Of a stretch of DNA of 64,000 nucleotides, positions 8,572-26,110 are shown in pieces. Source of the DNA: Clostridiales bacterium. Its GTDB lineage: Bacteria > Bacillota > Clostridia > Peptostreptococcales > Anaerovoracaceae. Under the pieces are notes generated by a model. The model did no database searches, was not told where the DNA came from, and saw nothing but the letters and a program-made list of their open reading frames with translations. The stretch is taken from positions 1-64,000 of the forward strand of contig WRJK01000001.1 in assembly GCA_009782285.1 (NCBI GenBank), given 5' to 3'. Made by a program: the position numbers and the translations under genes. Numbering within the stretch: the first letter of the stretch is position 1; each line of letters opens with the position of its first letter.

Positions 8572-8818
8572 GATTGCCAAGCCTTTCCATTCGATAATCC
8601 TCAAGGGTTTTGCCATGATCCGGCACAGCACCTATTAATGTTTCTGTAATTGTTCCCATCAGCATCGAGTCAATGTCATTTCTTGAAAGAGAGAGCTTTT
8701 CAGTCGCAACTTTCATAGGAACAATAATGATTTCAACTTTAGTATTTTGGTAATACCGCGGCAACGTGATAATACCGCTCAATAATCTTCCGTCAACAAT
8801 CTGTCTTATTGCTTCCAT
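8555..8818 (-). CDS. Antitoxin of the PIN-domain TA pair
   Basis: 87 residues. It opens with MEAIRQIVDGRLLSGIITLP and closes with NDIDSMLMGTITETLIGAVP then a charged tail (LEDYRMERLGNHERFD), a pattern familiar from chromosomal antitoxins paired with VapC/PIN toxins: a DNA-binding N-terminus and a toxin-embracing C-terminal helix. ATG 8818 is chosen because GGAGG lies 7 bases upstream; the in-frame ATG at 8839 would put that site inside the coding region. It overlaps the toxin start by 17 bases, as expected for translational coupling. Autoregulation of the promoter at 8853-8880 is likely but inferred. Confidence 0.85.
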   Translation of the reverse strand: MEAIRQIVDGRLLSGIITLPRYYQNTKVEIIIVPMKVATEKLSLSRNDIDSMLMGTITETLIGAVPDHGKTLEDYRMERLGNHERFD

Positions 8819-8989: not shown

Positions 8990-11900
8990 ATGGAGAGAAG
9001 GAAAATGAGAGCATGGTCCATCCTGCTCGCGCTGGTGCTGACACTGACGATTGCGCCGCTGCCGGCAGGGCTGGCGCATGCTGCCATAGAAGGCGGGGAA
9101 AGCTCGCCGGAAAAGCCGATGCAGTCTGAAACTGAATTCGTTGTGGCGCTTGACGTGGGGTTTGCAGAAGAGGTGTTGTCCGGCAAAGCTGAGCTTTTTA
9201 TGACAAACGGCGAAGCGGGCGAGACGCCAAGCCAAGGAAAAAACAAGGCACACAAGAAGATTCCACCCGGGCTGCTGAAAAAAGGATTCGACGCCAAGGA
9301 TACTCACATAAGGAACTTGGAACGCTACATAGCAAAGCATTTAGGGGATGCTCCTGCGCTGATCACGGTCGAAGTCGAAGACAAAGGTAAAATGGAAGAA
9401 GCGAGGGCAGCGGTAGAGGCGTGCGAAGGCGTGCTGTATACAGATCCCCTCACTTATTACTACGCGGACGGATTCAACGATCCGCTGATGCCCGACCAGT
9501 GGGCGCTCAATGTCATCGACGCGTTTGACGCTTGGGACAGCAATACGAACCTGCCCTCTGTAGTTATAGCGGTTTTGGACACCGGGGTGAGGCTTACCCA
9601 CGAAGACTTGGCGGAGAGCATAATTCCGGGTTACGACTTTGTTGACCTCGACGCTGACCCAACAGACATGCACGGGCACGGTACGCACGTAGCCGGCATT
9701 GCTGCCGCGATCAACAACAACGGCAAAGGCATAGCAAGCCCTGCGGGCGGTGCAAAAATACTGCCGGTTCGCGTTCTCGGCGCAGACGGCCGGGGCAACA
9801 GCCTGCAGGTTGCTGACGGTATTTACTACGCTGCAGAAAAAGGCGCCGATATTATCAACATGAGCCTTGGAAGCAACGCTTACTCGAGCGTGATTGACGC
9901 TGCTGTCCGTTATGCGCAAGGCAAAGGCTGTTTGGTGATTGCAGCGTCAGGAAACGACTACTATAAGAACTTGGTTAGCTACCCGGCAGCGCATGACGGG
10001 GTTATTATCGCGGCTTCACTCACGGAAAACGCCGACCACATCGCAATCGAATCTGATTTCTCGAACTACAGAGCAGCATACGCAAACCGCACGATACATG
10101 CGCCAGGCGACAAAATCATCAGTACAGACTATTCAAGCAACAGCTCTTACTCCCAAAAAAGCGGAACTTCCATGGCTGCACCGTATGTTTCAGGCATGGC
10201 GGCTGCGCTTCTGGCGCGAGGCGGGTTTTCGGGCAGCCTCTTCGACAAATTGCTCAATGAAACAGTATCATTGCCAAGGTATTACAAAAGCGGCACTGGT
10301 GTCAGGCCTGACCCGAGCGGCGCTGCCATGAAAGTGCTGAACGACAACGGCAACATGGACGCGTACAAGAACCAAGTTTTCAAGGTCACGTTCGGCGGAA
10401 GCGGATATCCGATGCCGGAAGCGCAATATGTTAGATTTGGTGACAAGGTGGCAGAGCCTGAAGCAACTCCGGTTCTTGCCGGCTATAGTTTTCTCGGCTG
10501 GAAAAGAAGCGGAGATAGCCAGTTTTACAACTTCTCAAACCCCGTGTATTCGAATTTAACCATCAATTCGACATGGGAAATCATTCAAAAATACAAGGTG
10601 AGCATTCAAAGCGACGGCAACGGCTACGCCTTTGCAAACGTGCTCGAAGCCTTGGCAGGCACGGAAATAACAGCAATTGCGACGCCAAACAGCGGGTATC
10701 GTTTCAAGGAATGGAACGTCGTGAGAGGAACCCCTGATTTTTCAAGCTTGTCGGCAAACCCCACTACTTTTACCATGCCGAAAGGCAGTGTGACCGTAAA
10801 GGCTGTCTTTGAACCTGTTGCGGATATGGGCAAAAGCATGGAGCTGCAATTTGCCCCTGTTGCCGTTGCAGCAAACGACGACAAGTCTGTTGTTTATTTG
10901 TCGGACAAAGACGGAAAAAAAGTATACAGCATAAACACGGAGACCTTCGAGCAAGAATCGATATCGTTCTCTTTGATGCCCGAGTCAATGTATTACAAAG
11001 ACGGCAAGCTGTACGTGTCGCTTTGTGAACGGCAGCACAGCTACTATTGGTGGGCGGCTGACCAAATCGGCGCGTATGCAATTGTCGACTGCGAGTCTTT
11101 TACAGTTGATGCACAGCATGACATCGACATTGACCCCTACAGCATCGTTGTTTCAAACGACGATATTGTTTATATTTCATCGGGATCCGGTCAAGGAACC
11201 TATATATGCGGTTATGACAAAAATGGGGATGTCGTTGCCAAAGGCCAAATTCGCAACATGTCACCGATAAAGTACAATTCGTCTCTGAACAAGATTTACG
11301 CCATTAATACGGATTTGTCCCCCCGGGGCATGTCTGCATATGTCATACAAGACGACGGCACGTTTTACGACAATGGCGGCAATGGTGGGACATATTTCAG
11401 ATGGCCATACCACGGCACCTTTTCGTCAGCGGCCAATTTCGCAATTACGCCGGACGATAAATACATTTTCAACGGCGCGGGCTATGTCATTGAATGCAAA
11501 GCAGCGCAGACAGAGGACATGATAAAGATACGCGACCTTGACAGGAGCTATGTTGACGTTGCCTTCGACTTGCCAGGAAATTCGTTCTACATTTCGATGA
11601 CAAACAAAAATATCCACAGTTTCAACTACGATACATTTAAGCAGCAAAAAAGCTATTCTGCCATAAGCGGGGTTCCGGAACGGATTTTTCTCACTGACAG
11701 TGACATAATTGCGATCACAAAGGAATCAAGCAACAAATATTTCATCGAGCAGATTTCAAAGAGCAATTTGCCAATCGGGATGTACAGCATAGGCGTCGAC
11801 TCCCAAGGCAACGGGGCTGCCGCAGCGAACGCATCGGCAGCAGAAGCGGGCGAGGTGATAACGATCGCAGCTATGCCGGACGACGGCAGCGCTTTCAAGG

Positions 11901-14791
11901 AATGGCAAGTCGACAGCGGCAGCGTGACTCTCTCCAATGCGGGGGATACCTTGGCAACTTTCACAATGCCGAGGGAAAACGTATCAATCACAGCTGTTTT
12001 TGAACAAATTGAAACTCCGCAAGGACATGGCGCAGTTCTGTCGTTCGCCCCGGCAGACGCAGTGTCAGACGACGACGGGGCGTTCATATATTTGTCGGAC
12101 AAAGCGCGGAAAAGGGTATACAGGGTGAACACTGCCACATTTGAACAGAATTACATATCGTTCAGCCTCATGCCAGAGTCCATGTATTATAAAGGCGGCA
12201 AGCTTTATGTGTCCCTATGCGAGCAGGAGCACAGTTCGTTCTGGTGGAACGAAAACCAGCGCGGCGCATATGCAGTCATTGACTGCGCGTCGTTCACTGT
12301 CGCTTCGCAATGCAGCATAGATTTTGACCCGTATGACATCGTTGTTTCTGACGACGGCATTGTTTACATAGGGTCAGGTTCTGGCCAGTGGACCTACATA
12401 TACGGCTTTGACCATAACGGGAGCAATGTCGCCAAAGGCCAAATACGCCAGCAGTCGCCCATAGAGTACAATTCTGCTTTGAACAAGATTTATGCCATAA
12501 CGACGGATTTGTCCCCTAGGAACATGTCTGCTTTTGTTATCCAAGGCGACGGTTCGTTTTTTGACGAGGGCGGCAACGGGGGGACATATTACAACTGGCC
12601 ATATCACGGTGCATTTTCATCAGCGGCAAATTTTAAAGTTTCGCCTGACGGGAAGCACATCTTCAACGGCATAGGGTATGTCCTTGATTGTTCGTCTGTT
12701 CGGTCCGCTGACATGGTAAAAACAAAAGACCTGGGCAACAGCTTCAAGGACATAGCATTTGACCTGGCGGCAAACAAGTATTATATTGCACCGAACAACA
12801 ATAAACGCGAAATCCAGAGTTTCAGATACGACACTTGTGCGCCATCAGACCTCTTTTACTTGGTAAACGGAAACCCTGAACGCGTTTTCATAGCGAAAGA
12901 TGGCATTTTGGCGCTCGCCAAGACAGACAATGACTTATACTGCATTGAGTGGGCAAGTTCGGATTCCGCCGTTCACGCACTGGGCGGCGCAGTGTCGATA
13001 ATAGGCGAAGCGAAGTTCGGGCAGAAGCTGACAGTGGACATCACCAGTTTGACTTCATATCCGGGTGCTGAAATCGGATCGTTCACGTATCAATGGAAGC
13101 GTACAGGCGAGGTTATAGCCGGGGCAACCGGCGCGCCGTACACGCCCGTTCTGGCAGACATCGGACAGACTTTGACCGCTACTGTTGCTGCAAACGGCTT
13201 GCCAGGCAATATGACATCAGGGAATACATTGACAGTTGCGAAAGCAGACGGGCCTGCTGAGCCTGCACCGCCCACAATGGCGAGCAAAACGTCTGATAGC
13301 ATAACGCTGAACGCAATGCCCGGCGCGGAGTACATGCGAGTAAAAAGCGACGAATGGGGAGAATCAGGCGGCACGTGGCAGGATTCGCCTACTTTCAGCG
13401 GGCTTGCCCCCAACACGTCATATGTATTCTTCGCGCGCATCAAAGAAACTGCAACCCATGGGGCATCGCCAATAAGCTTGTTCAGCGAGCCGATTGCAAC
13501 CGACATGGCTGACGAAGCCCTACAAGAGCAGACTGTAACTTTTGATGCCCCCGGAACCGTGACAAGGACATACGGCGACGCAGCTTTCACAAACGTAGCG
13601 AAATCATCAGGCAGCGGCACGATTTACTATTCGAGCAGCGACGCGTCGGTAGCGGCGGTGAACTCCACTTCAGGGCAGGTAACCATCTACAAGTCAGGCA
13701 CCACCACCATCGTGGCAACTGCCGCCGCAACCAGCAACTGCAATGAAGGGGCTGCGTCGTACACTTTGACGGTTCGAAAGGCCGGTTTGACGATCAAGCC
13801 AAAGGACATGAACATCAGCGCAAACGCTGCGATTCCGGCGCCGACAGTCGAATATTCAGGTTTGAAATACAATGACATAGGCGCAACCGCAGCGGCACTG
13901 GCAAGCGGCACACTTGACATGGAATTCCGCAACGCTGCAAATACCGGCGCATTGGCGAGCACGTCTGCCGCAGGGACATACAAAATCGTTTTTACCGGCA
14001 GCCCTGTGTTCGCGTCAGACAATTACGTTGTCACCGTTGGAGACGGTGCACTCACCATCACAGCAGCCGAAAGCGGTGCCGTTGAGGACGTCGGCGGTGG
14101 CGGTGGCGGTGGCGTCGGCGGTGGCGGCAGTGCTGGCGGCGAGGAACCAAAAGAGATAAGCGTCGAAGCAAGCGCACCGCAAGCAGCTATGGACTCTTTC
14201 CCGACGTTCATACAGGGTTTCGAAGACGGCACCTTCAGGGGCGACTTGCTTATTACCAGAGAGCAGTTCGTCACCATCCTGGCCAGGCTGAAGAACGGCG
14301 GCGATGTGCCGGCAGCTGACAAAACGAGCCTGTCGTTTAGCGACGTAGCCGCTGGGAGGTGGTCATACGACGCCATTGAATGGAGCGTAGTCGCAGGCAT
14401 AGCAGAGGCTGACGCAGACGGCAATTTCCGGCCTGCGCAGCCGCTCACAAGGGCAGACATGGCAACCATGCTGGTTAAGGCAGACAATTTAACCCGGATG
14501 GCGGAGAACACGTTCAGCGACATAGACGGGCACCCTGCAGCTGACTACATACTTAAAGCCACAGCGGCAAAGATATTCACCGGCTACCCTGACGGCACGT
14601 TCAAGCCGGACGGCAACACAAAGAGGGACGAAGCTGTAGCCGCAATTGCAAGGTACCTGCTCGGCGGCGAGCCGGAAGACAGCATGTGGAAGGGCATCGC
14701 CCTGACGTTTACTGACTTGAAAGACACCAATTGGGCTTACAAATACATAGCTTTAGCAGTGGAAGGCTGGGCTGCTGTTCCCAAAAAGTAA
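8990..14791 (+). CDS. Large secreted subtilisin-family protease with SLH cell-wall anchor
   Basis: 1933 residues. A signal peptide (about 1-31, ending GLAHA) is followed by a pro-region and an S8 peptidase domain with the full triad: D197 (VLDTGVRLTHEDL), H230 (HGHGTHVAG) and S394 (SGTSMAAP). Then come an InlB-type beta repeat (about 463-530), two tandem copies of a 395-residue unit (InlB_B-like module plus a beta-propeller-like module, about 535-1327), Ig-like, FN3-like, Big_2-like and MBG-like modules, a glycine-rich linker (about 1702-1722) and SLH repeats to the end. SLH repeats bind pyruvylated secondary cell-wall polymer, so the protease is probably displayed on the surface. Its N-terminal 430 residues are clearly paralogous to the dockerin protease at 17605. 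AGGGAGGGG lies 7 bases before ATG 8990. Confidence 0.95.
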   Translation: MERRKMRAWSILLALVLTLTIAPLPAGLAHAAIEGGESSPEKPMQSETEFVVALDVGFAEEVLSGKAELFMTNGEAGETPSQGKNKAHKKIPPGLLKKGFDAKDTHIRNLERYIAKHLGDAPALITVEVEDKGKMEEARAAVEACEGVLYTDPLTYYYADGFNDPLMPDQWALNVIDAFDAWDSNTNLPSVVIAVLDTGVRLTHEDLAESIIPGYDFVDLDADPTDMHGHGTHVAGIAAAINNNGKGIASPAGGAKILPVRVLGADGRGNSLQVADGIYYAAEKGADIINMSLGSNAYSSVIDAAVRYAQGKGCLVIAASGNDYYKNLVSYPAAHDGVIIAASLTENADHIAIESDFSNYRAAYANRTIHAPGDKIISTDYSSNSSYSQKSGTSMAAPYVSGMAAALLARGGFSGSLFDKLLNETVSLPRYYKSGTGVRPDPSGAAMKVLNDNGNMDAYKNQVFKVTFGGSGYPMPEAQYVRFGDKVAEPEATPVLAGYSFLGWKRSGDSQFYNFSNPVYSNLTINSTWEIIQKYKVSIQSDGNGYAFANVLEALAGTEITAIATPNSGYRFKEWNVVRGTPDFSSLSANPTTFTMPKGSVTVKAVFEPVADMGKSMELQFAPVAVAANDDKSVVYLSDKDGKKVYSINTETFEQESISFSLMPESMYYKDGKLYVSLCERQHSYYWWAADQIGAYAIVDCESFTVDAQHDIDIDPYSIVVSNDDIVYISSGSGQGTYICGYDKNGDVVAKGQIRNMSPIKYNSSLNKIYAINTDLSPRGMSAYVIQDDGTFYDNGGNGGTYFRWPYHGTFSSAANFAITPDDKYIFNGAGYVIECKAAQTEDMIKIRDLDRSYVDVAFDLPGNSFYISMTNKNIHSFNYDTFKQQKSYSAISGVPERIFLTDSDIIAITKESSNKYFIEQISKSNLPIGMYSIGVDSQGNGAAAANASAAEAGEVITIAAMPDDGSAFKEWQVDSGSVTLSNAGDTLATFTMPRENVSITAVFEQIETPQGHGAVLSFAPADAVSDDDGAFIYLSDKARKRVYRVNTATFEQNYISFSLMPESMYYKGGKLYVSLCEQEHSSFWWNENQRGAYAVIDCASFTVASQCSIDFDPYDIVVSDDGIVYIGSGSGQWTYIYGFDHNGSNVAKGQIRQQSPIEYNSALNKIYAITTDLSPRNMSAFVIQGDGSFFDEGGNGGTYYNWPYHGAFSSAANFKVSPDGKHIFNGIGYVLDCSSVRSADMVKTKDLGNSFKDIAFDLAANKYYIAPNNNKREIQSFRYDTCAPSDLFYLVNGNPERVFIAKDGILALAKTDNDLYCIEWASSDSAVHALGGAVSIIGEAKFGQKLTVDITSLTSYPGAEIGSFTYQWKRTGEVIAGATGAPYTPVLADIGQTLTATVAANGLPGNMTSGNTLTVAKADGPAEPAPPTMASKTSDSITLNAMPGAEYMRVKSDEWGESGGTWQDSPTFSGLAPNTSYVFFARIKETATHGASPISLFSEPIATDMADEALQEQTVTFDAPGTVTRTYGDAAFTNVAKSSGSGTIYYSSSDASVAAVNSTSGQVTIYKSGTTTIVATAAATSNCNEGAASYTLTVRKAGLTIKPKDMNISANAAIPAPTVEYSGLKYNDIGATAAALASGTLDMEFRNAANTGALASTSAAGTYKIVFTGSPVFASDNYVVTVGDGALTITAAESGAVEDVGGGGGGGVGGGGSAGGEEPKEISVEASAPQAAMDSFPTFIQGFEDGTFRGDLLITREQFVTILARLKNGGDVPAADKTSLSFSDVAAGRWSYDAIEWSVVAGIAEADADGNFRPAQPLTRADMATMLVKADNLTRMAENTFSDIDGHPAADYILKATAAKIFTGYPDGTFKPDGNTKRDEAVAAIARYLLGGEPEDSMWKGIALTFTDLKDTNWAYKYIALAVEGWAAVPKK
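10591..12972 (+). repeat. Tandem intragenic duplication, unit about 1185 bp
   Basis: Copy one begins near 10591 (YKVSIQSDGNG), copy two near 11776 (YSIGVDSQGNG), an offset of 395 codons. Each has an InlB_B-like module (GYRFKEW / SAFKEW; TFTMPKGSVT / TFTMPRENVS) followed by a propeller-like module with shared strings such as SFSLMPESMYYK and GGNGGTY. The copies have diverged at many positions, so this is an old duplication rather than an assembly artefact. Confidence 0.85.
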
Positions 14792-14815
14792 ACAGTATAA
14801 CAGATAAACACAGGG

Positions 14816-14855
14816 GGCTGTGCTAAACCGAAAGTTTGGCGCAGCCTACTTTTTT
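14816..14855 (+). terminator. Intrinsic terminator after the SLH protease
   Basis: A 13-bp stem (GGCTGTGCTAAAC with GTTTGGCGCAGCC, two G-T pairs), loop CGAAA, then TACTTTTTT. Strong rho-independent form, closing the protease gene as a monocistron. Confidence 0.92.
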
Positions 14856-14862
14856 GTTGAAA

Positions 14863-14880
14863 ACTACAGAAAATTGTAGT
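14863..14880. promoter_or_regulatory. Palindromic operator candidate upstream of the flavodiiron gene
   Basis: ACTACA-N6-TGTAGT, a perfect 6+6 inverted repeat, about 80 bases before the start. TATAAA at 14910-14915 is a possible -10 element downstream of it. The regulator is not identifiable; the half-site resembles CopY/BlaI-type TACA/TGTA operators, but the spacer is longer than usual. Confidence 0.4.
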
Positions 14881-14959
14881 AAAATAGTAGTGTAATTTTA
14901 TAGCAGTTGTATAAAATCTTGCACATGCAAGGTCCAAACTTATCAAAGGAGGGCGAAAG

Positions 14960-17497
14960 TTGAAGACGAAACAATTAACGAATGACTTATACTGGGTAGG
15001 TTGCCTTGACCCTGGGCTACGGGTGTTCGACATCATCATGTTCACTGAATTCGGCACTACTTACAATTCCTATGTGCTGAAAGGGTCCGAAAAGACTGCG
15101 TTGTTTGAGACTTCAAAGGCGAAATGTTTTGACGAATACGTTAAAAAAATTGAAGAAATCACTCCTGTAGAAAAGATAGACTACATAGTGCTGGACCACA
15201 CTGAGCCCGACCACGCGGGGTCTGTCGAAAGGCTGCTGGAACTGAACCCGAAAATCAAGCTTGTGGGCTCTGCGACAGCGATAGGCTTCATGAAAGAAAT
15301 CTGCAACAGGGATTTCAACGCCGTGCCGGTAAAGGAAGGGGACGTGATATCCCTAGGGAACAAAACCCTGCGCTTCATAGCGGCACCGAACCTACACTGG
15401 CCAGATAGCATATACACATACATAGCAGAAGAAAAAACCTTGTTGACATGCGATTCCTTCGGCTCGCATTATTCCTGCGAAGGCGTTACGAACGACAGGA
15501 TTGAAAACCAGGAAAACTACATGAAAGCGCTCAGATACTATTTCGACTGCATAATAGGGCCGTTCAAGTCATACATGCTCAAGGCAATCAGCAAGATAAG
15601 CGATCTGGACGTTGAAATCATATGCCCCGGCCACGGGCCCGTCTTGACAGAAGACCCATGGAAAATAGTCGAAATATGCAAAGGATGGTCAACGCCCCAA
15701 ATCACCAACACGAAAAAAACGGTGGTGATCCCTTACGTTTCGGCATATGGTTATACGGAAACGCTGGCAAGCAGGATAGCGGACGGGATAAAAGAAGCAG
15801 GCGACGTTGACGTGAAGCTTCACGACATGGTGACGGCTGATGCAGGCCTTGTCTTGGAAGATATTGCCTATGCCGATGGTGTCTTGTTTGGCACTCCCAC
15901 CATTATAGGCGAGGCCTTGAAGCCGATATGGGATTTGACAACGTCCATGTTCGCCGGCGTGCACGGCGGGAAAATCGCCTCTGCCTTCGGCTCCTACGGT
16001 TGGAGCGGCGAAGGCGTGCCCCACATCATGAAGAGGCTTGGGCAGCTGCGACTGAAGCTGTACGGGGAAGGGTTGAGGGTAAGGTTCAAGCCGAGCAAAG
16101 CCCAGCTTGCAGAGGCATTTGACTTCGGCTACGGTTTCGGCTGTTCCGTGCTTGCCGGGGAAATCGTGGTGCCGGAGAAAACAGGCGGCGACTTAGTGTG
16201 GAAATGCCTCGTATGCGGCGAAATGATAAGCGGGGCCAACCCTCCGGGCGTGTGCCCGGTCTGCAGCGTAGGGCCGGAACAATTTGTCAAAGTACTCGTC
16301 CCGGAGCTGACGTTCAGGAGGGACACTACGGAAAAATTTGTGATAATCGGGAACGGGGCTGCCGGTACCTCCGCCTGCGAAGAGATAAGGGCGAGAAACG
16401 CCACTTGCAGCATAGAGATGATATCAAGGGAAAACGTCATCGGGTACAACAGGCCGATGCTGACAAAGGGTATACTTTCAGAAGTCGACATGCTCAACCT
16501 GTTTATCAAACCTTACGGCTGGTACAAGGAAAACGGGGTGGAGTTGACCCTTGGCGTCGGCGTCGAAGAAATTGTCGAGGGCTCAAAGACGCTGAAATTG
16601 TCTGACGGTTCCGAAAGGGCATACGACAAGCTGATCATAGCTACCGGCGCCGAATCCTTTGTGCCACCCTTCAAAGGCGTTGAAAAAGAAGGCGTCTTCG
16701 CTATAAGGACGCTTGAAACCATAAACAAAATCAGGGAATACATGAATGGAAACGTCAAAAACGCAGTCGTGATTGGCGGCGGCGTCCTCGGACTTGAAGC
16801 CGCTTGGGAGCTCAAAAAAACCGGCATTGGGGTCACCGTTGTCGAAGCAGGACCCGTTATAATGGGCAGACAGCTTGACGAGAGGGCAGGCAAATTCCTC
16901 TTGGAGGCTTTCGAAAGGACGGGCGTCAAATACGCCGTCGGAAGCGGAATCGAGGAAATCGCAGGCGAGGGGCGAGCGACGGGCGTGAAGCTGGCAGACG
17001 GCGCTACGGTTCCGGCAGACATTGTGATCATATCAACCGGAGTGAGGCAAAACATAACTTTGGCTCAAGGGATCGGAATCGAAACCAAGCGGTCGATAGT
17101 GGTTAACGAGCGGATGGAGACGGGGAAAGAAGGCATTTATGCGTGCGGGGACTGTGCCGAGTTCGAAGGGACGAACTACGCGATATGGCCCCAGGCCGTA
17201 GACATGGGAAAAATCGCGGGCGCAAATGCTGCCGGAGATGAGGCTGTCTACAAAAAAACCACCCCGGCAGTCACCTTCAGCGGCATGAACACCTCTATTT
17301 TCTCTCTTGGCGACATTGGCAAATCCGAGGGCAAAAAATACAAAACCAAGGAATACTGCGACGAGGAGAACCTGATCTACGAGAAGCTCTACTTTTTGAA
17401 CAGCCGATTCTGCGGCGGCATACTGATGGGCGACATCAGCAAGTCGGGCACCCTGCTTGCGGCGTTCGAGGAAAAGGCGCACATATCCAAGATGTAG
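14960..17497 (+). CDS. Multidomain (class F-type) flavodiiron protein
   Basis: 845 residues from TTG 14960 (AAAGGAGGG 6 bases upstream). Domain order: beta-lactamase-like diiron domain (about 1-245; ligands in HTEPDHAG, NLHWPDS, CDSFGSH and CPGHG), flavodoxin domain (about 250-395, IPYVSAYGYTETLASRIADG), a short-spaced rubredoxin-like domain (CLVCG, 12 residues, CPVC; about 413-440), then an FAD/NAD(P)H oxidoreductase (IIGNGAAGTSACEEIR, VIGGGVLGLEAAWEL). This lets one chain take electrons from NAD(P)H to the diiron site and reduce O2 to water or NO to N2O in the cytoplasm; similar fusions are known in clostridia. All diiron and rubredoxin ligands appear present. It lies between two paralogous proteases and is flanked by hairpins on both sides, so is likely monocistronic. 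Confidence 0.95.
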   Translation: MKTKQLTNDLYWVGCLDPGLRVFDIIMFTEFGTTYNSYVLKGSEKTALFETSKAKCFDEYVKKIEEITPVEKIDYIVLDHTEPDHAGSVERLLELNPKIKLVGSATAIGFMKEICNRDFNAVPVKEGDVISLGNKTLRFIAAPNLHWPDSIYTYIAEEKTLLTCDSFGSHYSCEGVTNDRIENQENYMKALRYYFDCIIGPFKSYMLKAISKISDLDVEIICPGHGPVLTEDPWKIVEICKGWSTPQITNTKKTVVIPYVSAYGYTETLASRIADGIKEAGDVDVKLHDMVTADAGLVLEDIAYADGVLFGTPTIIGEALKPIWDLTTSMFAGVHGGKIASAFGSYGWSGEGVPHIMKRLGQLRLKLYGEGLRVRFKPSKAQLAEAFDFGYGFGCSVLAGEIVVPEKTGGDLVWKCLVCGEMISGANPPGVCPVCSVGPEQFVKVLVPELTFRRDTTEKFVIIGNGAAGTSACEEIRARNATCSIEMISRENVIGYNRPMLTKGILSEVDMLNLFIKPYGWYKENGVELTLGVGVEEIVEGSKTLKLSDGSERAYDKLIIATGAESFVPPFKGVEKEGVFAIRTLETINKIREYMNGNVKNAVVIGGGVLGLEAAWELKKTGIGVTVVEAGPVIMGRQLDERAGKFLLEAFERTGVKYAVGSGIEEIAGEGRATGVKLADGATVPADIVIISTGVRQNITLAQGIGIETKRSIVVNERMETGKEGIYACGDCAEFEGTNYAIWPQAVDMGKIAGANAAGDEAVYKKTTPAVTFSGMNTSIFSLGDIGKSEGKKYKTKEYCDEENLIYEKLYFLNSRFCGGILMGDISKSGTLLAAFEEKAHISKM

Positions 17498-17515
17498 AGG
17501 TGCGGTGTAAAATAC

Positions 17516-17542
17516 GGGGCTGTTGAGCGTTTCAGCAGCCCC
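17516..17542 (+). terminator. Hairpin after the flavodiiron gene
   Basis: GGGGCTGTTGA pairs with TTCAGCAGCCCC around a short GCG-type loop. No clean T-run follows; the next base starts the TTGACA of the downstream promoter, so termination may be partial. Confidence 0.55.
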
Positions 17543-17570
17543 TTGACAATTTGGAGCATTGGGGTATAAT
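17543..17570 (+). promoter_or_regulatory. Consensus sigma-A promoter of the dockerin protease
   Basis: TTGACA (17543-17548), 16-base spacer, TATAAT (17565-17570): both hexamers are perfect. It abuts the upstream hairpin and lies 34 bases before ATG 17605, which rules out the longer open frame starting at 17551. Confidence 0.85.
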
Positions 17571-17604
17571 TAAATCAATAACCATTTATTTGAGGGATAG
17601 AGTC

Positions 17605-20016
17605 ATGAAGAAGAAATTGTGGTTGATGGTTGCCCTTGCTCTTGCGTTGGCGGTTGCAAATGCAAGCCCGGCGCTTGGTGTCGAAACGTCGGATGGGACG
17701 GGGAACCAGCACAATAAGCCGACGCAGTCAGAAACCGAATTTGTCGTAGCCATTGATCCTGAGTTCGCCGACAAGGTGGTTTCCGGGCAAGCGGAACTTT
17801 TTGCTTACGAAGACAAAACGGCAGCCTTGCCTAGTGGTCAAAAAGATGAGAAGAAGCTAAAGAAGCTGCCGCCTGGGCTGCTCAAAAAAGGGCTTGACGG
17901 TAAAGAGGAGCATGCAAGGAACCTTGAACGATACATGAAAAAGCACATGGGCAGCGGACCAGTGCTCATGACGGTCGAAGTCGAAGACAAAGGCATGATA
18001 GAGGAAGCAAGGGCTGCCGTCGAGAAATGCGAAGGCGTCCTATATACAGACCCGCAGGTATATTATTATGCGAGCGGGTTCAACGACCCTCGCTCCGCTG
18101 AACAGTGGGGGCTTGAAGTGATTTCCGCGTACAACGCTTGGAATGGCAACACCAATTTGCCAAAAATTACCATTGCAATCCTCGACTCGGGCGTGCGCCT
18201 GACCCACGAGGATCTTGCGGCGAGCATATCCGAAAAAAAGTGGGATTTTATTGACGACGATTCCAACCCGTCAGATTTGCACGGCCACGGTACGCATGTC
18301 GCAGGAATTGCCGCAGCAATATGCGACAACAGCAGGGGTATAGCGTCTCCAGCAGGCGGCGCGAAAATCATGCCGGTGCGTGTGCTGGACGCAGGCGGCG
18401 AGGGAAGCCTCATTGGCGTCGCTTCAGGAATCCGCTATGCGGCAGACAACGGTGCCGACGTAATCAACATGAGCTTGGGAAGCTACATGGATGTCCAAAC
18501 GATGCGCGATGCGGTCAACTACGCCCTGGCAAAGGGCTGCCTTGTGGTCGCGTCTGCCGGGAACGACGGCTTGTCAGCTGTGGAGTACCCCGCTCGCTAC
18601 GACGGTGTGATCATAGCTGCGTCGCTGAATGTGTCGTCTGTGCCGGGATTTCCCTATGCAGAATCACGCAATTCAAACTATGACAGGCAGTATGCTTACC
18701 GTACTGTGCATGCGCCCGGTCAATTGATTCTGAGCACCTACGCCGGCAGCAACACGTCATACAACTATATGAGCGGCACGTCGATGGCATCTGCGTACGT
18801 CAGTGGGGTCGCGGCGGCTATCAAGGCGCGGGGCGGCTACACCGGCTCGCTTTTCAACGCTGTGCTCAGCGCGACATACACAGTGCCTAGGGGCAAGATG
18901 GATATACTGGGGGGCGTTAGCGTCTCGGGAACGATGAAAATTCTTGATTACGACAAAAAGTCTTCAACGCCTGAATACGTTACTGTGGCTTTTGAGCCGA
19001 ACGGCGGCGGGCCCGCGCCCGCCCCGCAATCCGTGCCCGTCGGTGGGCTGGCGGCGGCGCCAACGCAGATCAGCAGGGATGGGTACCTTTTCATAGGCTG
19101 GTACGCAGAACCGGGGTTTTCAGGAGAACCCTTCAATTTCATGTCACCTGTGGGATACCCTACGGTTCTTTACGCAAAATGGGAACCGGCTCCGAGGGGT
19201 TTCCGCGTTGGGCAGGAAACCTATGGCGGCTTGAACGCGGCTCTTGCCGCAGCAGAAAACGGAGGTGAAATAACGTTGCTGGCAGACATGCAGCACACGG
19301 GTGCGATTGAGATTGTAAACAAGATAATAACGTTCAATTTGGCGGGCCACAGCCTTAACGTGTTCTGTTTCAGTGACGACGCAGGCCTGTACGTGGAAGG
19401 AGGCGAGGTTCGCATAGCGGGCGGGGGCGCATTCAACATAAACTGCGCTGCCGAATGCACGTATGGCATCAATGCGGTGGACTCGGTTGTTGAAGCCACC
19501 AACGTCAGCGTCGGCATGCAGTCCTGCGCAATAAGGGCAGAGGGCGAAAGCAGCGTAACTGCCTATGGGAACGTTATATCCGGCCTTGCCGGAGTTGAAA
19601 TAACATCTATCGGCAATTCCACCGTCACGATAGACGGCAAGTTAAATGCACCTGAGTTCGCAGCGCTACAAGGTGCAGCAGTAAACCAAAAGGACTGTCT
19701 GGGCCCGTCTACAAGGGCAGGGTATGTTACATACTACCGGGAAAACGATGAGGGCGCTGCCACGCTTTGGGTCAGGCAGACAGATGCGGGCTACTCGAAA
19801 TACGACCTGAACAAGGACAACAAAGTGGGTGCCCTTGACCTTGGCATCATGCTGCTGTACTGCGGCTTTGACAAGGATGCCCCCGATTGGGGCGACGTTA
19901 TTAAAGTCAACGATTCGAGAGGCGCCGGCGTTTGCGCCGGCATGTGCGACGTCAACGGGGACGGCCTGATTGACATGCTTGACCTGCTCGACCTTTTCAT
20001 CCACTATACGAAATGA
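17605..20016 (+). CDS. Secreted subtilisin-family protease with C-terminal dockerin
   Basis: 803 residues from ATG 17605. Signal peptide (about 1-24), pro-region, then an S8 domain with triad D194 (ILDSGVRLTHEDL), H228 (HGHGTHVAG) and S393 (SGTSMASAYVSG). A Listeria-Bacteroides type InlB repeat (about 455-528, ending PTVLYAKWEP) and a beta-helix-like stretch follow. The last 70 residues form a type I dockerin: two calcium-loop repeats, DLNKDNKVGALD and DVNGDGLIDMLD. Dockerins bind cohesins on scaffoldins; no cohesin gene is in this window. The pro-region and S8 domain are closely similar to the SLH protease at 8990, so the two paralogues carry the same catalytic unit with different anchoring. 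Confidence 0.94.
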   Translation: MKKKLWLMVALALALAVANASPALGVETSDGTGNQHNKPTQSETEFVVAIDPEFADKVVSGQAELFAYEDKTAALPSGQKDEKKLKKLPPGLLKKGLDGKEEHARNLERYMKKHMGSGPVLMTVEVEDKGMIEEARAAVEKCEGVLYTDPQVYYYASGFNDPRSAEQWGLEVISAYNAWNGNTNLPKITIAILDSGVRLTHEDLAASISEKKWDFIDDDSNPSDLHGHGTHVAGIAAAICDNSRGIASPAGGAKIMPVRVLDAGGEGSLIGVASGIRYAADNGADVINMSLGSYMDVQTMRDAVNYALAKGCLVVASAGNDGLSAVEYPARYDGVIIAASLNVSSVPGFPYAESRNSNYDRQYAYRTVHAPGQLILSTYAGSNTSYNYMSGTSMASAYVSGVAAAIKARGGYTGSLFNAVLSATYTVPRGKMDILGGVSVSGTMKILDYDKKSSTPEYVTVAFEPNGGGPAPAPQSVPVGGLAAAPTQISRDGYLFIGWYAEPGFSGEPFNFMSPVGYPTVLYAKWEPAPRGFRVGQETYGGLNAALAAAENGGEITLLADMQHTGAIEIVNKIITFNLAGHSLNVFCFSDDAGLYVEGGEVRIAGGGAFNINCAAECTYGINAVDSVVEATNVSVGMQSCAIRAEGESSVTAYGNVISGLAGVEITSIGNSTVTIDGKLNAPEFAALQGAAVNQKDCLGPSTRAGYVTYYRENDEGAATLWVRQTDAGYSKYDLNKDNKVGALDLGIMLLYCGFDKDAPDWGDVIKVNDSRGAGVCAGMCDVNGDGLIDMLDLLDLFIHYTK

Positions 20017-20057
20017 CATTGGATGGCTGACCACAACCGATGGCAGCCGTATGCAGG

Positions 20058-20093
20058 CAACCGCCATGCTTGCTGGTTTTCGGCGGTTGTTTT
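20058..20093 (+). terminator. Possible terminator after the dockerin protease
   Basis: CAACCGCC (20058-20065) and GGCGGTTG (20082-20089) form an 8-bp stem with a 16-base loop, followed by TTTT. The long loop makes it a moderate candidate; it could attenuate rather than end transcription into the macroglobulin gene, for which no clear separate promoter is visible. Confidence 0.5.
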
Positions 20094-20153
20094 CAGCTGG
20101 AACTTTTTCGAGGTGAAGATTGTCTAAAAAAGAAAAGAGAGGTGGGATTTACT

Positions 20154-23100
20154 ATGCAAAAAATCAAAAACAAAGCAGTTCAATTCATCAATGCCATTAA
20201 AAGCAAGCCGGCTGTCGCCATTGCGTCCTCCGCTGCAGCGGTTGTTGTTGTCCTAGTCATTTGCTTCGCACTGCTTGGCGGCTACGAGCCACTGCCCGAG
20301 TCGTTTGCCGGCGAGATCAGCATAGTGCCGGTTTACGATTCAGAGTACGGTGTCGGAGCGGCGCAAGGGTTCATCATCACATCAGCGGAACCGTTGACGG
20401 ATGAGCTCGTTGTTAGCTCCCTGGTGCTGTCGCCTCCTTTCGAATACACGCTGAAAAGGGAGGACGAAGGCAAATCCTACACAATCAAGCCCAAAACTCC
20501 GCTTCTCGCGAACACGGTCTATCAAATGGGGCTGGATCCTGAGCGGGCTTTGGCAGACAGGGCACCAAGGGCTTCAAACACTTGGGCCTTCCAGATTGAG
20601 GCAGAGTTCGAGCTTCTCGGCTCTATCCCGACTGACAAGGGGACGGATGTCCCCGTAAACACGGTTTTGCGGTTTACGTTCACTCAGGCGGTAGACGCTC
20701 AGATCGCCGGCGGATATATAAACGTGAGCCCTGAAATCGGCGGAATATGGGAAAGCAAAGGGGAACAGCTAACATTTATCCCTCAGAGCGACCTCAGCTT
20801 GAACACTGTATATACCATTAGCGTCAGGGAGGGCTTGCCAAACCTTGCTGGCGACGGGAAGCTTTCTGAAAGCCGTGAGATCCAATTTCAGACAGCACTT
20901 AGGGAAGATAGCAGCAACAGGACATGGTTCAACATTGAAAACGACAACAATTGCTTCCGGACTGACGAGATTCCGGCTTTTCGATACTACAACGGGTGGA
21001 ACGGGGATACTATCGGAGCCTTCAATGTAGAGGTGTTTAGTTTTAGCGACGAAAGCAGTTACATAGAAGCGCTGAAATCACGCCAGCCGGCATATTACTG
21101 GTGTTACGCAGAAACAGAGGAAGCCGTCGATACAGGCAGCTTGACGGAGGTGTACAGCTTCGAAGTCAAAAATCTGGAAGCCAAAGTACTGCGCTGCCCT
21201 GAAACACTAAGCGCCGGCTATTACCTTGCTGACATTAAAGCTGACGGGGAAAGAAGGCAGAGCTTGTTTCAGGTTACCGACATCTCCGGTTACTTTGCTG
21301 CAGGGGAAAAAGATTCCCTTGTCTGGATAAACGACCTGGCAACAGGGCAGCCGATCAGCGGTGCGACGGTTTCCCTTGTGGGCTCGGCAAAGTCGGCTGT
21401 AACAGACGATATGGGCATTGCCGTTATTGACGGCACGAATGAAAGAAACCCGATAATTAGCATATCCGGCAGGGGCGACCGTTTGGTTATGAACAGCTTT
21501 AACTATTACGCCGGGCAAGAGGAGCCGGCAATCAATTCCTACGACTACTGGTACTGCGTTTCAACCGACCGGCAGATATACCGCCCCGGCGATACGGTGA
21601 ACTATTTTGGGATCATGGCGCCGAGGAGCGAGAAGGGCAGGCATTTTGCAGAGGCTGAGCTGGTGCTGAGAGGCGGAGCGTATTGGAGAGATTCTGCAAT
21701 CCGGCAGAAAGTGGAAATCGAGGATGGCGTCATCAGCGGTTCATGGGAACTGCCGATGCTGAACACGGGTTGGTACTCCGTCAGCATTGAAATCGACGGC
21801 CAAAGCTTCGGGTACGCCGGGTTTGAGGTGGCGTATTACGAGAAACCGGCCTATCAGTTTTCCTTGAAAAGCGGCAAAAAGGCCGTGTTCGCAGGCGAAC
21901 AGGTGACGTGGAGCATACATGCGGGTTATTTCGAGGGTACCCCTGTGGCAGGCCTTGAAATTAACACAAGGCATGACGGAAAAGAAGAAAAGACAACAAC
22001 AGACGGGGAAGGGGAGACGCTTGTAACAGGCACTGCGCGTCAAACAGACAGCAGTTATTTGACGGGCAGCACATACCTATCCGTATCGGCTGTCATGCCG
22101 GAACTGGGGGACGTGTCAGCTTACAGCGACGTAGCTGTATTCAACAGCGACATCGACATTGAAGGGAAGGTGAAGCGAGACGGGGGCTCTTTCAAGCTGC
22201 ATCTTGACGGCTATGACGTGAACTTGGACAAAATAAACGAAGGGGCTCAGATTTGGCGCAGCGAGTACAGAGAGCCCATTTCAGGAGCCGTAAGCTTGAG
22301 CGCTGACTTGGTGCGGATCGAATACGACAAAATACAGAATGGGCCCTTTTACAACGAGTACACCCTCCAGACCTACTACACCTATGACTACAATCAGCGC
22401 GAAGTGCATGAAAACAGCTTCGAGCTGTCGCTTATGTGGGGGGGCCTTGATTTCACCGCTGACTTGGAAACAGGCAATTCCTATAGGCTGGTCATTTTTG
22501 GAAAGGACCACAAAGGCCGGGATTTCACACGCTCGTACTATATCCCGGAAGAATCGCGGAATGCAACAATTCCAAACATTTCAGGAGGGGAAGATTTCTG
22601 GGAGAACTTCGAGTGGGGCCAATACAGGTACTTCTACATATCAGAGACAAACAGCGGCAATTACGAGCATGCCGTTGGCGACGAACTGGCATTTGCCATC
22701 TGGTGCTGGGGCGTGCAAGTTCCAAAACCTGAAAGAGGCAATATCCTCTATTTCAGGAGCCAAGAAACGGTCCGCGACTATGTGCTCTCCAGAGACGGCA
22801 CATACGAAATGAAGTTTGAAGAAACAGACATACCCAACATTAACTTGGCGGCTGTCTGTTTTGACGGGAAATACTACGCTGAAAGCGAATGCCGCTACGT
22901 TTCCCTCAATCCGGCTGACAAGGCTGCCAAGGTGAGCGTCACAACTGACAAAAAACGCTACGCACCGGGGGAAACGGTTGAAATGTCCCTCTCAATGACC
23001 GACAAGGACGGCAAGCCGCTTGCAGGGAGCATAAACGTAAGCATAGTCGACGAGGCACTGTTCGCAGTGGCGGAAAACTACGTGGACATTGGCAACGCGG

Positions 23101-25148
23101 TGTTTGGCAACAAGTACTACTATAGCTACAGAGGCGCTGTCAGCCACCTTCCCGTTGAAGCAAGCCCAGGAGGCGCCGAGATGGGCGACGGCGGAGGCGA
23201 ACGCGAGGATTTCAGGGACACAGCTTTTTTCAAAACAATCAAGGCAGATTCGAAAGGGCGGGCTTCGCTCAGCTTCGAGCTTCCGGACAACATCACGTCT
23301 TGGCGAGTGACATGGCAGGCGTATTCCCCGGGTATACATGTCGGGAAAGGCAGCATCAACATAGACGCGTCGCTGGACTTCTTCTTGGATTACCGCTTGG
23401 CAAGGACGTTCCTTAAAGGCGACGAGCCGAAGGCAGGGCTGCGGTCTGCCGGGTTGGGGATAGATCCTTTAAAAAGCCTATCATCGTACACGGTGGAAAT
23501 CACCCAGGCGGGATTTAGCAAAACAGCAAGCGGACAGGCAAACACGTGGCAGGAGATATCGCTCCCACAGCTAACAGAAGACAAGATCAGGGTGAAAATC
23601 AGCGCACAGAACGGGGAGTACAAAGACGCGGTGAACATGGACATTTCAACAGTGGACAGCTTCGCGAGCCACTGGTTCTGCGAAGAATCCAAGCTTGCGG
23701 CAGGCTTGCGCCCGGCAGGGTCGAAAACTTATCCGACGACGATTGTCTTCAGCGACAAAGCATACGCTGCAGAGCTTTCCAGCCTCTACAACTTGGCGTG
23801 GCGCAGCGGCATAAGGCTCGAACAAAAACTCGTCTCCCAAATTGCTTCCGACATTTTATTTCATGACATGGGGGTCGAGAGGTACTCCGTCAGCGAAGAC
23901 GAAGAACGCACAGCAAGGGAAGACATCATCAAATACCAGCGAGGGAACGGTGGGGTGTCTTCGTTCACGTACTCTGACGCAGACGTTGAAACCAGCGCAC
24001 TGGCAGCGTCCATCGGCGGCGAGTATTTCGACAAAGATGCGCTGGCTGCGTATTTCTATAATTCCCTTGGGAGAGAGGATGCTGGGCTTTTGGACAAGAC
24101 CCTCTGCCTGTGGGGGCTTGCGGCACTGAGGGCGCCGGTGCTTCTTGATATCACAAAAACCCTTGAGGACCCTTACTTGGACGGTGAATGCAAACTAAAT
24201 CTGACTATGGCGCTGTATTTCGCAGGCGACGGGGCTAGGGCAAAAACCCTTGCAAAGGAAGTCATAGCGGAATTTACGGAAGACCTCGGCACAGAGGTTC
24301 GGTCGAAGATAGGCATAAGCGACCAGCTTTACGGAAGGATCCGGCACGAGGCTGCCGAGCAGACGAAAGCCACTGCGCGGCTGGCGTTGCTTGCTAGCGC
24401 ATTCGACTTGCCGCAAGCAGAAGGGCTTGCCCAGTACATGAGTAACAACGCCTACGAGGGCGACTATTACCTGATGGAGAAAATGGGCATAGCGCAGAAC
24501 AACCTGTCGCGGCTTCCAGAGGGGGACACCAAGTTTGCATACGCCCTTGAGGGTAAATCAAATACCGTCGATCTTCGCAAGAAAACCGTTTATTCTCTGC
24601 TCGTATTGCCTGAGCAGCTTGACAGGATCAGTTTTAGCGAAATCGAAGGTGACATCACAGTGCTCTCCTGCTATCTGAAAGAAGGGCAGCCGCCGGATGG
24701 GGAAGCTGCAGCCGGGCAGCTTACGATTGATAGGGCCATAAACGGGAGCAGAGGCGGAGCCGTTTCTGTCCCGCAGGGGAAGCCTGTCCGCATAACCATT
24801 GATTTCTGGATAGCGGCAGATGCGCCAAACGGCTGCTACACCATCACGGACATGCTGCCGGCAGGGCTGCGCTTCGGAAACAATGAAACCTCAAGCGACT
24901 GCTACGCTTGGCCCGGCGGCAATGAGAATAAAGAGGTAACGGCCGGCATATATAAAACGGACTACAGTTTTTATTCGTGGTGGAAGCCTTCGTACTACAT
25001 GCCTGACGGGAGCCTGAAAGGAAAACTGGTTTACACCGCTTACCCTGCAATGACAGGCAGCTTTACAGCGGAGGCGCCGCGTTTTGGGCACAGCATCAAC
25101 GACGGAATCATGATCCACGCACCGGAAACGAGGGTTACGATAGAGTGA
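20154..25148 (+). CDS. Membrane-anchored alpha-2-macroglobulin family protein lacking the thioester Cys
   Basis: 1664 residues from ATG 20154 (GAGAGGTGG upstream); an open frame to 20040 has no ribosome site. A single hydrophobic segment (about 20-43) suggests an N-terminal membrane anchor, not a lipobox. Bacterial A2M layout: a MG1/Big-5-like domain (about 150-240), macroglobulin MG domains, an A2M core around SWRVTWQAYSPGIHVGK, and a helical thioester-type domain from about 1200. At the expected Cys-x-Glu-Gln site the protein reads GIRLEQ (R1221), so no thioester can form. Bacterial A2Ms are thought to trap attacking proteases in the periplasm or at the cell surface; thioesterless forms must act non-covalently. 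Its stop overlaps the MEMO gene start (GTGA). Confidence 0.88.
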   Translation: MQKIKNKAVQFINAIKSKPAVAIASSAAAVVVVLVICFALLGGYEPLPESFAGEISIVPVYDSEYGVGAAQGFIITSAEPLTDELVVSSLVLSPPFEYTLKREDEGKSYTIKPKTPLLANTVYQMGLDPERALADRAPRASNTWAFQIEAEFELLGSIPTDKGTDVPVNTVLRFTFTQAVDAQIAGGYINVSPEIGGIWESKGEQLTFIPQSDLSLNTVYTISVREGLPNLAGDGKLSESREIQFQTALREDSSNRTWFNIENDNNCFRTDEIPAFRYYNGWNGDTIGAFNVEVFSFSDESSYIEALKSRQPAYYWCYAETEEAVDTGSLTEVYSFEVKNLEAKVLRCPETLSAGYYLADIKADGERRQSLFQVTDISGYFAAGEKDSLVWINDLATGQPISGATVSLVGSAKSAVTDDMGIAVIDGTNERNPIISISGRGDRLVMNSFNYYAGQEEPAINSYDYWYCVSTDRQIYRPGDTVNYFGIMAPRSEKGRHFAEAELVLRGGAYWRDSAIRQKVEIEDGVISGSWELPMLNTGWYSVSIEIDGQSFGYAGFEVAYYEKPAYQFSLKSGKKAVFAGEQVTWSIHAGYFEGTPVAGLEINTRHDGKEEKTTTDGEGETLVTGTARQTDSSYLTGSTYLSVSAVMPELGDVSAYSDVAVFNSDIDIEGKVKRDGGSFKLHLDGYDVNLDKINEGAQIWRSEYREPISGAVSLSADLVRIEYDKIQNGPFYNEYTLQTYYTYDYNQREVHENSFELSLMWGGLDFTADLETGNSYRLVIFGKDHKGRDFTRSYYIPEESRNATIPNISGGEDFWENFEWGQYRYFYISETNSGNYEHAVGDELAFAIWCWGVQVPKPERGNILYFRSQETVRDYVLSRDGTYEMKFEETDIPNINLAAVCFDGKYYAESECRYVSLNPADKAAKVSVTTDKKRYAPGETVEMSLSMTDKDGKPLAGSINVSIVDEALFAVAENYVDIGNAVFGNKYYYSYRGAVSHLPVEASPGGAEMGDGGGEREDFRDTAFFKTIKADSKGRASLSFELPDNITSWRVTWQAYSPGIHVGKGSINIDASLDFFLDYRLARTFLKGDEPKAGLRSAGLGIDPLKSLSSYTVEITQAGFSKTASGQANTWQEISLPQLTEDKIRVKISAQNGEYKDAVNMDISTVDSFASHWFCEESKLAAGLRPAGSKTYPTTIVFSDKAYAAELSSLYNLAWRSGIRLEQKLVSQIASDILFHDMGVERYSVSEDEERTAREDIIKYQRGNGGVSSFTYSDADVETSALAASIGGEYFDKDALAAYFYNSLGREDAGLLDKTLCLWGLAALRAPVLLDITKTLEDPYLDGECKLNLTMALYFAGDGARAKTLAKEVIAEFTEDLGTEVRSKIGISDQLYGRIRHEAAEQTKATARLALLASAFDLPQAEGLAQYMSNNAYEGDYYLMEKMGIAQNNLSRLPEGDTKFAYALEGKSNTVDLRKKTVYSLLVLPEQLDRISFSEIEGDITVLSCYLKEGQPPDGEAAAGQLTIDRAINGSRGGAVSVPQGKPVRITIDFWIAADAPNGCYTITDMLPAGLRFGNNETSSDCYAWPGGNENKEVTAGIYKTDYSFYSWWKPSYYMPDGSLKGKLVYTAYPAMTGSFTAEAPRFGHSINDGIMIHAPETRVTIE

Positions 25149-26110
25149 ACGGGCGGCTGAAGACGAACATAAAGAAAGCCGTCGCATGCAAGGCGTGCAT
25201 TGCCGCCCTCGCCGTGCAGGCTGCCTTGTCAGCCTGCACAGGCACGGCTGGCGTTGCCTCAGACTGGGAAGCGGCTGCGCTTGAGCAGGACGGCAAGGTG
25301 GCGTTTACCCAGACCCAGGCTATCGACGCGAGGCCGTTCCTCAGCGAGAGCGAGCTTCTGAAGAGCGTGTCCGAAGAGTGCTGGGAGGCATTTGGGCTGG
25401 GCAAGCCTGACGGTTTGGCAAGCGTAGGCGAAAAACCGATAAGAGGGGTCGTTGTGCCCCACCACGCGGCAGCAGCAGCACTTTCGGCATACCTTATAAG
25501 CAGGCTGGCTGAAAGCCAGCCGCCTGCGGTGATAATACTTGCGCCGAACCACTACAACACAGGTGCTGAGGCAATTACAGCCGCCTCGGACTTTATGTGC
25601 CACAGCAAAAGGGTTTCAGCAGGCACAGAGGCGGCTGAGCGGCTCGGCAGGGCAGGGCTTGTCAGCATAAGCGACGAGCCTTTCAAGAGGGAGCACAGCA
25701 TCGGCATGCTGTTGCCGATCATCGCTTGGTACTTGCCTGACGCGGAGGTTATTCCTGTCATTTTTCACCACGGCGCGGATGAGGGTAGAATACTTGCCGT
25801 CCTCCATGCGCTTTCGCCTGAAATTGAGGCAGGGGCGGTTGTCGTTGCTTCGATCGACTTTTCCCATTACCTGACTTGGGCTGAGGCTGTTGAAAAAGAC
25901 CGGGAAACGAGAGGGTACTTGGAAAATGGCGACGCTGCAGCAATCTCCAAGCTGGACAGCAGCTACGTAGACTCGCCCACTGTCATGGCGGCGATGCTCA
26001 TGCATTTCGGAACGGAAGGCATGGAGATCGTTGCGAATACCAATTCCGGCATCCTTATGAACAACCCTGTCTCCCCCTGTACAAGCTATTTTGCGATTCA
26101 ATTCCGATGA
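25145..26110 (+). CDS. MEMO-family (AmmeMemoRadiSam B) lipoprotein
   Basis: 321 residues from GTG 25145, overlapping the macroglobulin stop by 4 bases. The first 31 residues look like a lipoprotein signal with lipobox LSA-C31. The body is a MEMO domain: VVVPHHAAA (H106/H107), LAPNHYNTG (H136), EHSIG (H184), DFSHY (H241) and SPC (C312), matching the His/His/Cys metal-site pattern of the family. MEMO proteins bind a metal and resemble ring-cleaving dioxygenases; the bacterial members usually pair with AMMECR1 and a radical SAM protein, neither of which is present here. An exported MEMO coupled to a macroglobulin is unusual. Reaction unknown. Confidence 0.88.
   Translation: MNGRLKTNIKKAVACKACIAALAVQAALSACTGTAGVASDWEAAALEQDGKVAFTQTQAIDARPFLSESELLKSVSEECWEAFGLGKPDGLASVGEKPIRGVVVPHHAAAAALSAYLISRLAESQPPAVIILAPNHYNTGAEAITAASDFMCHSKRVSAGTEAAERLGRAGLVSISDEPFKREHSIGMLLPIIAWYLPDAEVIPVIFHHGADEGRILAVLHALSPEIEAGAVVVASIDFSHYLTWAEAVEKDRETRGYLENGDAAAISKLDSSYVDSPTVMAAMLMHFGTEGMEIVANTNSGILMNNPVSPCTSYFAIQFR

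Follow-up and report, generated by a model that had tools for sequence, protein, structure and literature searches.

The window analysed here is the whole stretch of 64,000 nucleotides at positions 1 to 64,000 of contig WRJK01000001.1 (assembly GCA_009782285.1), from a Clostridiales bacterium of the family Anaerovoracaceae whose genome is a 3.1 Mb draft of 210 contigs with 87.5% completeness. On its + strand, the window encodes a membrane-anchored protein resembling alpha-2-macroglobulin (A2M) and, directly downstream, an exported MEMO protein. These two genes form a co-inherited, adjacent two-gene unit that recurs across families and phyla. A sequence-only reading of the region had listed four genes, running from an S8 subtilase with SLH domains through a second subtilase and the A2M-like gene to the MEMO gene, and open reading frames (ORFs) and Pfam matches agree with all four placements, on the + strand. 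That reading had further joined the four genes into a candidate surface proteolysis module, a grouping that the relatives of the A2M-like protein contradict.

The A2M-like gene and the MEMO gene are inherited as an adjacent pair

The A2M-like gene occupies 20154..25148 on the + strand, within an ORF that opens at 20040, and the MEMO gene follows at 25145..26110 on the same strand with a GTG start. The 4-base overlap between them proposed earlier is real: the junction reads GTGA, with the TGA stop of the A2M-like gene inside it and the MEMO start at the same GTG.

To follow the pair through relatives, 326 genomes of the order were each searched with both a MEMO and an A2M profile, and the same question was put to 398 genomes of the phylum. 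In the order, strong matches to both profiles occur in 12 genomes, and the two genes are adjacent in 12 of 12, one A2M gene being split by a contig end; none of the 326 genomes has a strong match to only A2M or only MEMO. The leftover single-profile matches are weak, at about 19-32 bits, and the weak MEMO-profile matches sit in frames of 430-490 amino acids, the size of AMMECR1 fusions. In the phylum, 29 genomes carry both genes, 2 carry A2M only, 0 carry MEMO only and 367 carry neither, with a full-length A2M in 31; the genes are adjacent in 28 of the 29 pairs and lie on different contigs in the remaining genome (G624). Fisher tests, which ignore relatedness, give p values of 4e-22 for the order and 5e-42 for the phylum. 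The sequence-only reading named as its refutation genes that are dispersed in relatives and co-occur no more often than chance allows; A2M and MEMO pass this test strongly, and the subtilases fail it.

A species-wide scan of 84,980 species revealed 505 places that encode A2M relatives, and neighbourhoods were judged in the best 80. Ten of these loci end too early to judge. Among the 70 decidable loci, MEMO lies at most 400 bases downstream of A2M in 52 and at most 1.7 kb downstream in 2, and 16 have no MEMO beside A2M; the exact 4-base overlap is found in 21 loci. MEMO is the one family that recurs beside A2M in the majority of these 80 loci, in which no third conserved neighbour was found, and the flanking genes apart from MEMO vary among lineages. 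In the window, the pair is flanked by genes for a subtilase and for a branched-chain amino acid transporter. Additionally, the A2M and MEMO distance matrices correlate with an r of 0.92.

Cultured carriers of the pair include Pseudobacteroides cellulosolvens, Dethiosulfatibacter aminovorans and Sedimentibacter acidaminivorans. Individual genomes classified as Chloroflexota, Acidobacteriota or Patescibacteria carry the pair as well, with mis-binning possible for each such metagenome-assembled genome; a Taylorbacteria contig with the pair also bears ribosomal-protein genes. In the A2M tree, the window sequence clusters with genomes of other classes and not with its own family or order, a placement that suggests that the pair was transferred horizontally. 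Regulatory genes precede A2M in some lineages. Specifically, genes for a BlaI-type repressor and a BlaR1-type (M56) sensor lie directly upstream in two loci (L048:17035-19030 and L119:3894-5730) and at a distance of a few kb in L093 and L098, and an extracytoplasmic function (ECF) sigma gene lies directly upstream in a Peptococcaceae-like lineage (L080:5040-5591, L091:5202-5753 and L095:5001-5561). These upstream genes suggest envelope-stress control.

The A2M-like protein is anchored and lacks the thioester cysteine

Both domain matches and a structure model assign the A2M-like protein to the alpha-2-macroglobulin family by fold. Pfam scores, against their cut-offs, are 46.7/32.8 bits for MG2, 35.8/21 for A2M and 24/22.7 for A2M_BRD, and Big_5 is also matched. 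The model, which covers residues 510-1702 with a mean predicted local distance difference test (pLDDT) score of 81.5, has the A2Ms of E. coli and Salmonella as its best structural matches. The protein comprises an N-terminal transmembrane anchor, Big_5, MG2/bMG3, a bait-region domain, an A2M domain and a thioester-domain fold without the Cys. Its likely start is Met39 at 20154, which has a good ribosome-binding site (GAGAGGTGG) ahead of it. The window protein has a hydrophobic anchor at its N terminus, as do 30 of the 31 A2Ms sampled; the one without it is a fragment.

The thioester-site equivalent, at 23808..23825 on the + strand, encodes G-I-R-L-E-Q at residues 1257-1262. In all 89 relatives that can be aligned there, the Cys of the CxEQ thioester is replaced by Arg, within a consensus of G-x-R-[VLIATF]-[DE]-[Q/x]. 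Covalent capture via a CxEQ thioester is thus excluded.

Direct phmmer searches against the PDB gave no match for A2M or MEMO, whereas profile and fold comparisons did. An anti-phage defence role was also considered and rejected: the PADLOC anti-phage defence models match neither A2M nor MEMO, and their S8 matches are generic.

The exported MEMO protein retains the metal-site histidines of human MEMO1

MEMO proteins are found in bacteria, archaea and humans. The window protein belongs to this family by both profile and fold: it matches Pfam Memo with 51.9 bits (cut-off 27), and its structure model (mean pLDDT 89.9) has human MEMO1 as its top match, with a Z of 24.1 and a root-mean-square deviation of 2.8 over 249 residues. 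LigB-type extradiol dioxygenases match the model with Z of about 13-18. Residues H49, H81, H131, D189 and H192 of human MEMO1 correspond to H106, H136, H184, D238 and H241 of the window protein. Across 57 MEMOs, the equivalents of H49, H81, D189 and H192 are present in 57 of 57 and that of H131 in 56. The metal ligands of MEMO1 are H49, H81 and C244. The C-terminal part of these 57 proteins contains no conserved Cys, the profile alignment stopping short of C244; D276 is invariant and N300 near-invariant. An O2-dependent dioxygenase role for MEMO in these anaerobes is unlikely.

The N-terminal signal of the window MEMO includes a lipobox-like LSAC at residues 28-31. A hydrophobic N terminus is found in 57 of 57 MEMOs and a lipobox pattern in 22 of 57, and the exported, A2M-linked form accounts for 14 of the 18 phylum genomes with a Memo match. 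Two Uhrbacteria encode exported MEMO as a fusion with PGA_cap, a capsule-synthesis domain, next to A2M (L128:10982-12757 and L132:10838-12739); a Rhizobium plasmid bears an exported MEMO-PGA_cap fusion with no A2M beside it (L227:3773-5524).

A conserved motif in the bait-position loop appears to track MEMO linkage

The protease bait of A2Ms is the stretch that links the bait-region domain to the A2M domain, and its sequence usually varies. The loop at this place in the window protein spans residues about 1023-1075 (23106..23264, + strand). MEMO-linked A2Ms have a short loop at this position, measuring 56-63 residues between VDEA and the following domain, and share a conserved AExG(G)EGG motif in it; in MEMO-less A2Ms the loop is mostly longer (58-95 residues) and variable. 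The window motif reads GGAEMGDGG at residues 1044-1052, its invariant Glu being Glu1047, and motif assignments were confirmed by visual inspection and by comparison with the alignment. Residues 522-544 of the structure model (1031-1053 of the protein), which span the motif, have pLDDT below 50, and the loop is predicted to be disordered.

In an unbiased scan of 219 well-conserved A2M columns, the column of Glu1047 ranks first in separating MEMO-linked from MEMO-less proteins, with Glu in 69 of 69 MEMO-linked versus 3 of 17 MEMO-less sequences. The motif also serves as a rule that can be tried on single genomes. In particular, the A2M of locus L107 has the motif without a MEMO beside it, and a MEMO was found on another contig of its genome, while in 10 genomes with a motif-less A2M a MEMO was found nowhere, an absence that is uncertain case by case since many MEMO-less genomes are drafts. 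In line with this, the motif is present in every MEMO-linked A2M read in the phylum set, and the A2Ms of G614 and G658, the two genomes of that set with no MEMO anywhere, are without the full motif. On the tree, MEMO is absent through four independent events, all four of them motif-less. These alignments indicate that the conserved loop motif tracks MEMO linkage.

One clade consists of MEMO-less A2Ms with long, variable, bait-like loops (L083, L086, L106, L108, L115-L117, L119, L123, L124, L126, L130, L133 and L135), several of its members coming from Oscillospiraceae and Defluviitaleaceae, and offers a natural contrast group. Anaerotruncus colihominis also bears a full-length A2M relative, without MEMO, on a circular plasmid of 52 kb (NZ_CP094683.1; L226:2887-7980).

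The upstream subtilases are incidental to the pair

Upstream of the pair on the + strand lie the S8 subtilase with SLH domains (8990..14791) and the S8 subtilase with a dockerin-like C terminus (ORF 17551..20016), both outside the conserved unit. Pfam finds Peptidase_S8 and two SLH matches (155.6 and 94.6 bits) in the former, and Peptidase_S8 in the latter, in which the dockerin match falls just under its cut-off (20.5 vs 22.9). The earlier gene list had left out a gene between the two subtilases, at 14960..17497 on the + strand, which encodes a flavodiiron, rubredoxin-like and NAD(P)H oxidoreductase fusion as a single protein of 845 amino acids and likewise stands outside the unit.

The Asp, His and Ser motifs are kept in both S8 domains, and the two subtilases are 53% identical over 502 residues, which identifies their genes as tandem paralogues. 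A perfect sigma-70 consensus, TTGACA-16-TATAAT, at 17543-17570 precedes the dockerin-type subtilase gene and suggests that this gene starts near 17605 and not at 17551. About 137 bases separate this gene from the likely A2M start. The source genome encodes 12 S8 domains, and a subtilase occurs in the fetched flanks of a related A2M in only 1 of the best 80 loci. Additionally, a sister genome (80% complete) keeps the A2M-MEMO pair and has its sole detected S8 on another contig; its contig with the pair ends inside A2M, so that the upstream side of the pair is not visible there. Taken together, the subtilases are incidental to the A2M-MEMO unit and have no specific connection with it.

Two further observations concern the surroundings. 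Seven cohesin matches in the source genome (L196-L202), together with the dockerin subtilase and SLH proteins of the same genome, point to a possible non-cellulosomal cohesin-dockerin surface system. On the - strand at 8134-8631, a small ORF resembles, by eye only, a PIN-domain protein and is a possible toxin of a toxin-antitoxin pair.

A2M and MEMO may act together as an envelope module

We propose, with a probability of roughly 55%, that A2M and MEMO constitute a two-gene envelope module in which MEMO works with or on the bait-position loop of A2M. Both proteins would act as one complex at the outer side of the membrane. A2M would be a non-covalent trap or a conformational switch, like the type II bacterial A2Ms, and MEMO would dock on, or act on, the conserved loop and set or sense the state of A2M, with cleavage or engagement of the loop coupled to the chemistry of the MEMO metal site. 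The role of the module may be to protect or survey the cell envelope, as supported by the known bacterial A2Ms (PMC5764988), the BlaI/BlaR1 and ECF sigma genes upstream of A2M and the MEMO-PGA_cap fusions.

Several points weigh against this proposal. Physical contact between MEMO and A2M is something we infer, and protease trapping by the window A2M is a candidate function. The four independent contrasts give a sign test p of 0.125 and cannot reach significance, and most MEMO-less cases come from a single clade. Some MEMO-less proteins also come close to the motif: besides the 3 of 17 rows with Glu aligned at the key position, G658 retains AE with the rest of the motif lost, L083 has PESGGGG within a longer loop, and the A2M of the Anaerotruncus plasmid has AESGDG with no MEMO on that plasmid, the chromosome lying outside this check. 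The Rhizobium plasmid, moreover, makes clear that A2M is not the sole context of exported MEMO.

A tentative but real possibility is that the two proteins are co-transcribed and both maintain the envelope, but independently and without ever touching, A2M being a non-covalent trap for proteases in general and MEMO an envelope metalloenzyme for, e.g., a cell-wall or capsule component. The parallel would be type I A2M and PBP1c, a proposed trap-and-repair pair (PMC5764988). The BlaI/BlaR1 or ECF sigma genes upstream in some loci would suit it, and the PGA_cap fusions, which show envelope uses of exported MEMO apart from A2M, keep it alive. Independent action leaves unexplained, however, why the loop motif is conserved only in MEMO-linked A2Ms and how the motif in L107 predicted an unlinked MEMO. 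It is more doubtful that the motif follows MEMO through shared ancestry alone, with no functional link. The concentration of MEMO-less sequences in mostly one clade and the limit of four contrasts speak for this; the four contrasts nevertheless agree in direction, and the Glu1047 column outranks all other conserved columns under the same phylogeny.

Two readings that draw on gene context or family labels fare far worse. The sequence-only reading had the subtilases working with a cognate protease trap, for self-protection or regulated processing, which would make MEMO an accessory; the genes do adjoin in the window, and two S8 genes do lie beside a protease-trap homologue. With the tandem origin of the subtilases, the many other S8 domains in the genome, the S8 position in the sister genome, the near-absence of S8 genes beside related A2Ms and the spacing and separate promoter of the dockerin-type gene, we consider this very unlikely, and self-protection from the neighbouring subtilases is without support. 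Least credible of all is membership of MEMO in an AmmeMemoRadiSam system, as its component B, with an incidental position after A2M. NCBIfam TIGR04336 (AmmeMemoRadiSam system protein B) does match the window MEMO (score 77.6, cut-off 26), but the protein is exported, its neighbours in the window and in the relatives' loci include neither AMMECR1 nor radical-SAM genes, and its adjacency to A2M is conserved far above chance; we therefore rejected this membership. The AMMECR1 of the source genome is fused to LigB beside a radical-SAM-like gene on another contig (C20; L013:13112-15318), so that the genome has an AmmeMemoRadiSam-like system of its own, with LigB in place of Memo. The label that this family match attaches to exported MEMOs is likely misleading for them.

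Within the proposed envelope module, a more specific arrangement, which we regard as improbable, is that MEMO and A2M share an active site, Glu1047 supplying the third metal ligand in trans or being the substrate. This idea arises because exported MEMO keeps two metal-binding His without a conserved Cys for the third ligand of MEMO1. In LigB-type enzymes, a Glu stands at the third metal-ligand place. If the site were shared, a foreign protease cutting the loop would switch MEMO on or off, which would amount to a protease-triggered alarm on the cell surface.

The primary molecular function of MEMO is described as unknown (PMC11081632). An exported MEMO genetically bound to one large partner, with a specific loop and residue to examine, would make MEMO function testable in simple bacterial proteins. 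Additionally, our comparisons suggest that, in a bacterial macroglobulin family, the protease bait has become a dedicated, protein-specific site, unlike both described types of bacterial A2M.

Comparison with known systems

The open literature searched holds no description of the A2M-MEMO link, although a MEMO-superfamily survey may mention the neighbourhood; the earlier view that the composition is undescribed therefore holds, within that literature, for A2M with MEMO. The kind itself is known, since thioester-less A2Ms with dedicated partners have been described (MagD with MagA-F). As far as the open literature shows, three features are new: the pairing with MEMO, the anchoring and the conservation of a motif at the bait position.

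The window MEMO resembles AmmeMemoRadiSam protein B (TIGR04336) in matching its family model above cut-off, and differs in being exported, A2M-linked and without an AMMECR1 or radical-SAM partner gene. With human MEMO1 (PMC11081632) and LigB-type dioxygenases it shares the fold, and the equivalents of H49, H81, H131, D189 and H192 are kept; unlike human MEMO1, it is exported and membrane-anchored, and lacks a conserved Cys for the metal ligand C244, with an invariant D276 and a near-invariant N300 instead.

Among bacterial A2Ms, the type I proteins paired with PBP1c (E. coli YfhM/ECAM and Salmonella Sa-A2M) are envelope-anchored, provide the best structural match and show the same two-gene pairing with an envelope partner. 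Unlike them, the window A2M has Arg for the Cys of the CxEQ thioester and MEMO as its partner, with no PBP1c gene beside it. On the other hand, MagD, the type II A2M of the Pseudomonas aeruginosa magABCDEF operon, traps protease non-covalently (PMC5764988). The window protein matches this type in combining an A2M fold with the lack of a thioester, and is likewise membrane-associated with a dedicated partner gene. A mag-type six-gene operon is not present at the window and only MEMO recurs in relatives, Mag proteins not having been used as queries. The partner is MEMO and not MagA-F, and the window A2M has its own N-terminal anchor. Finally, MagD retains a bait region that is cut by several proteases, whereas the window A2M has a short, conserved motif at the bait position.

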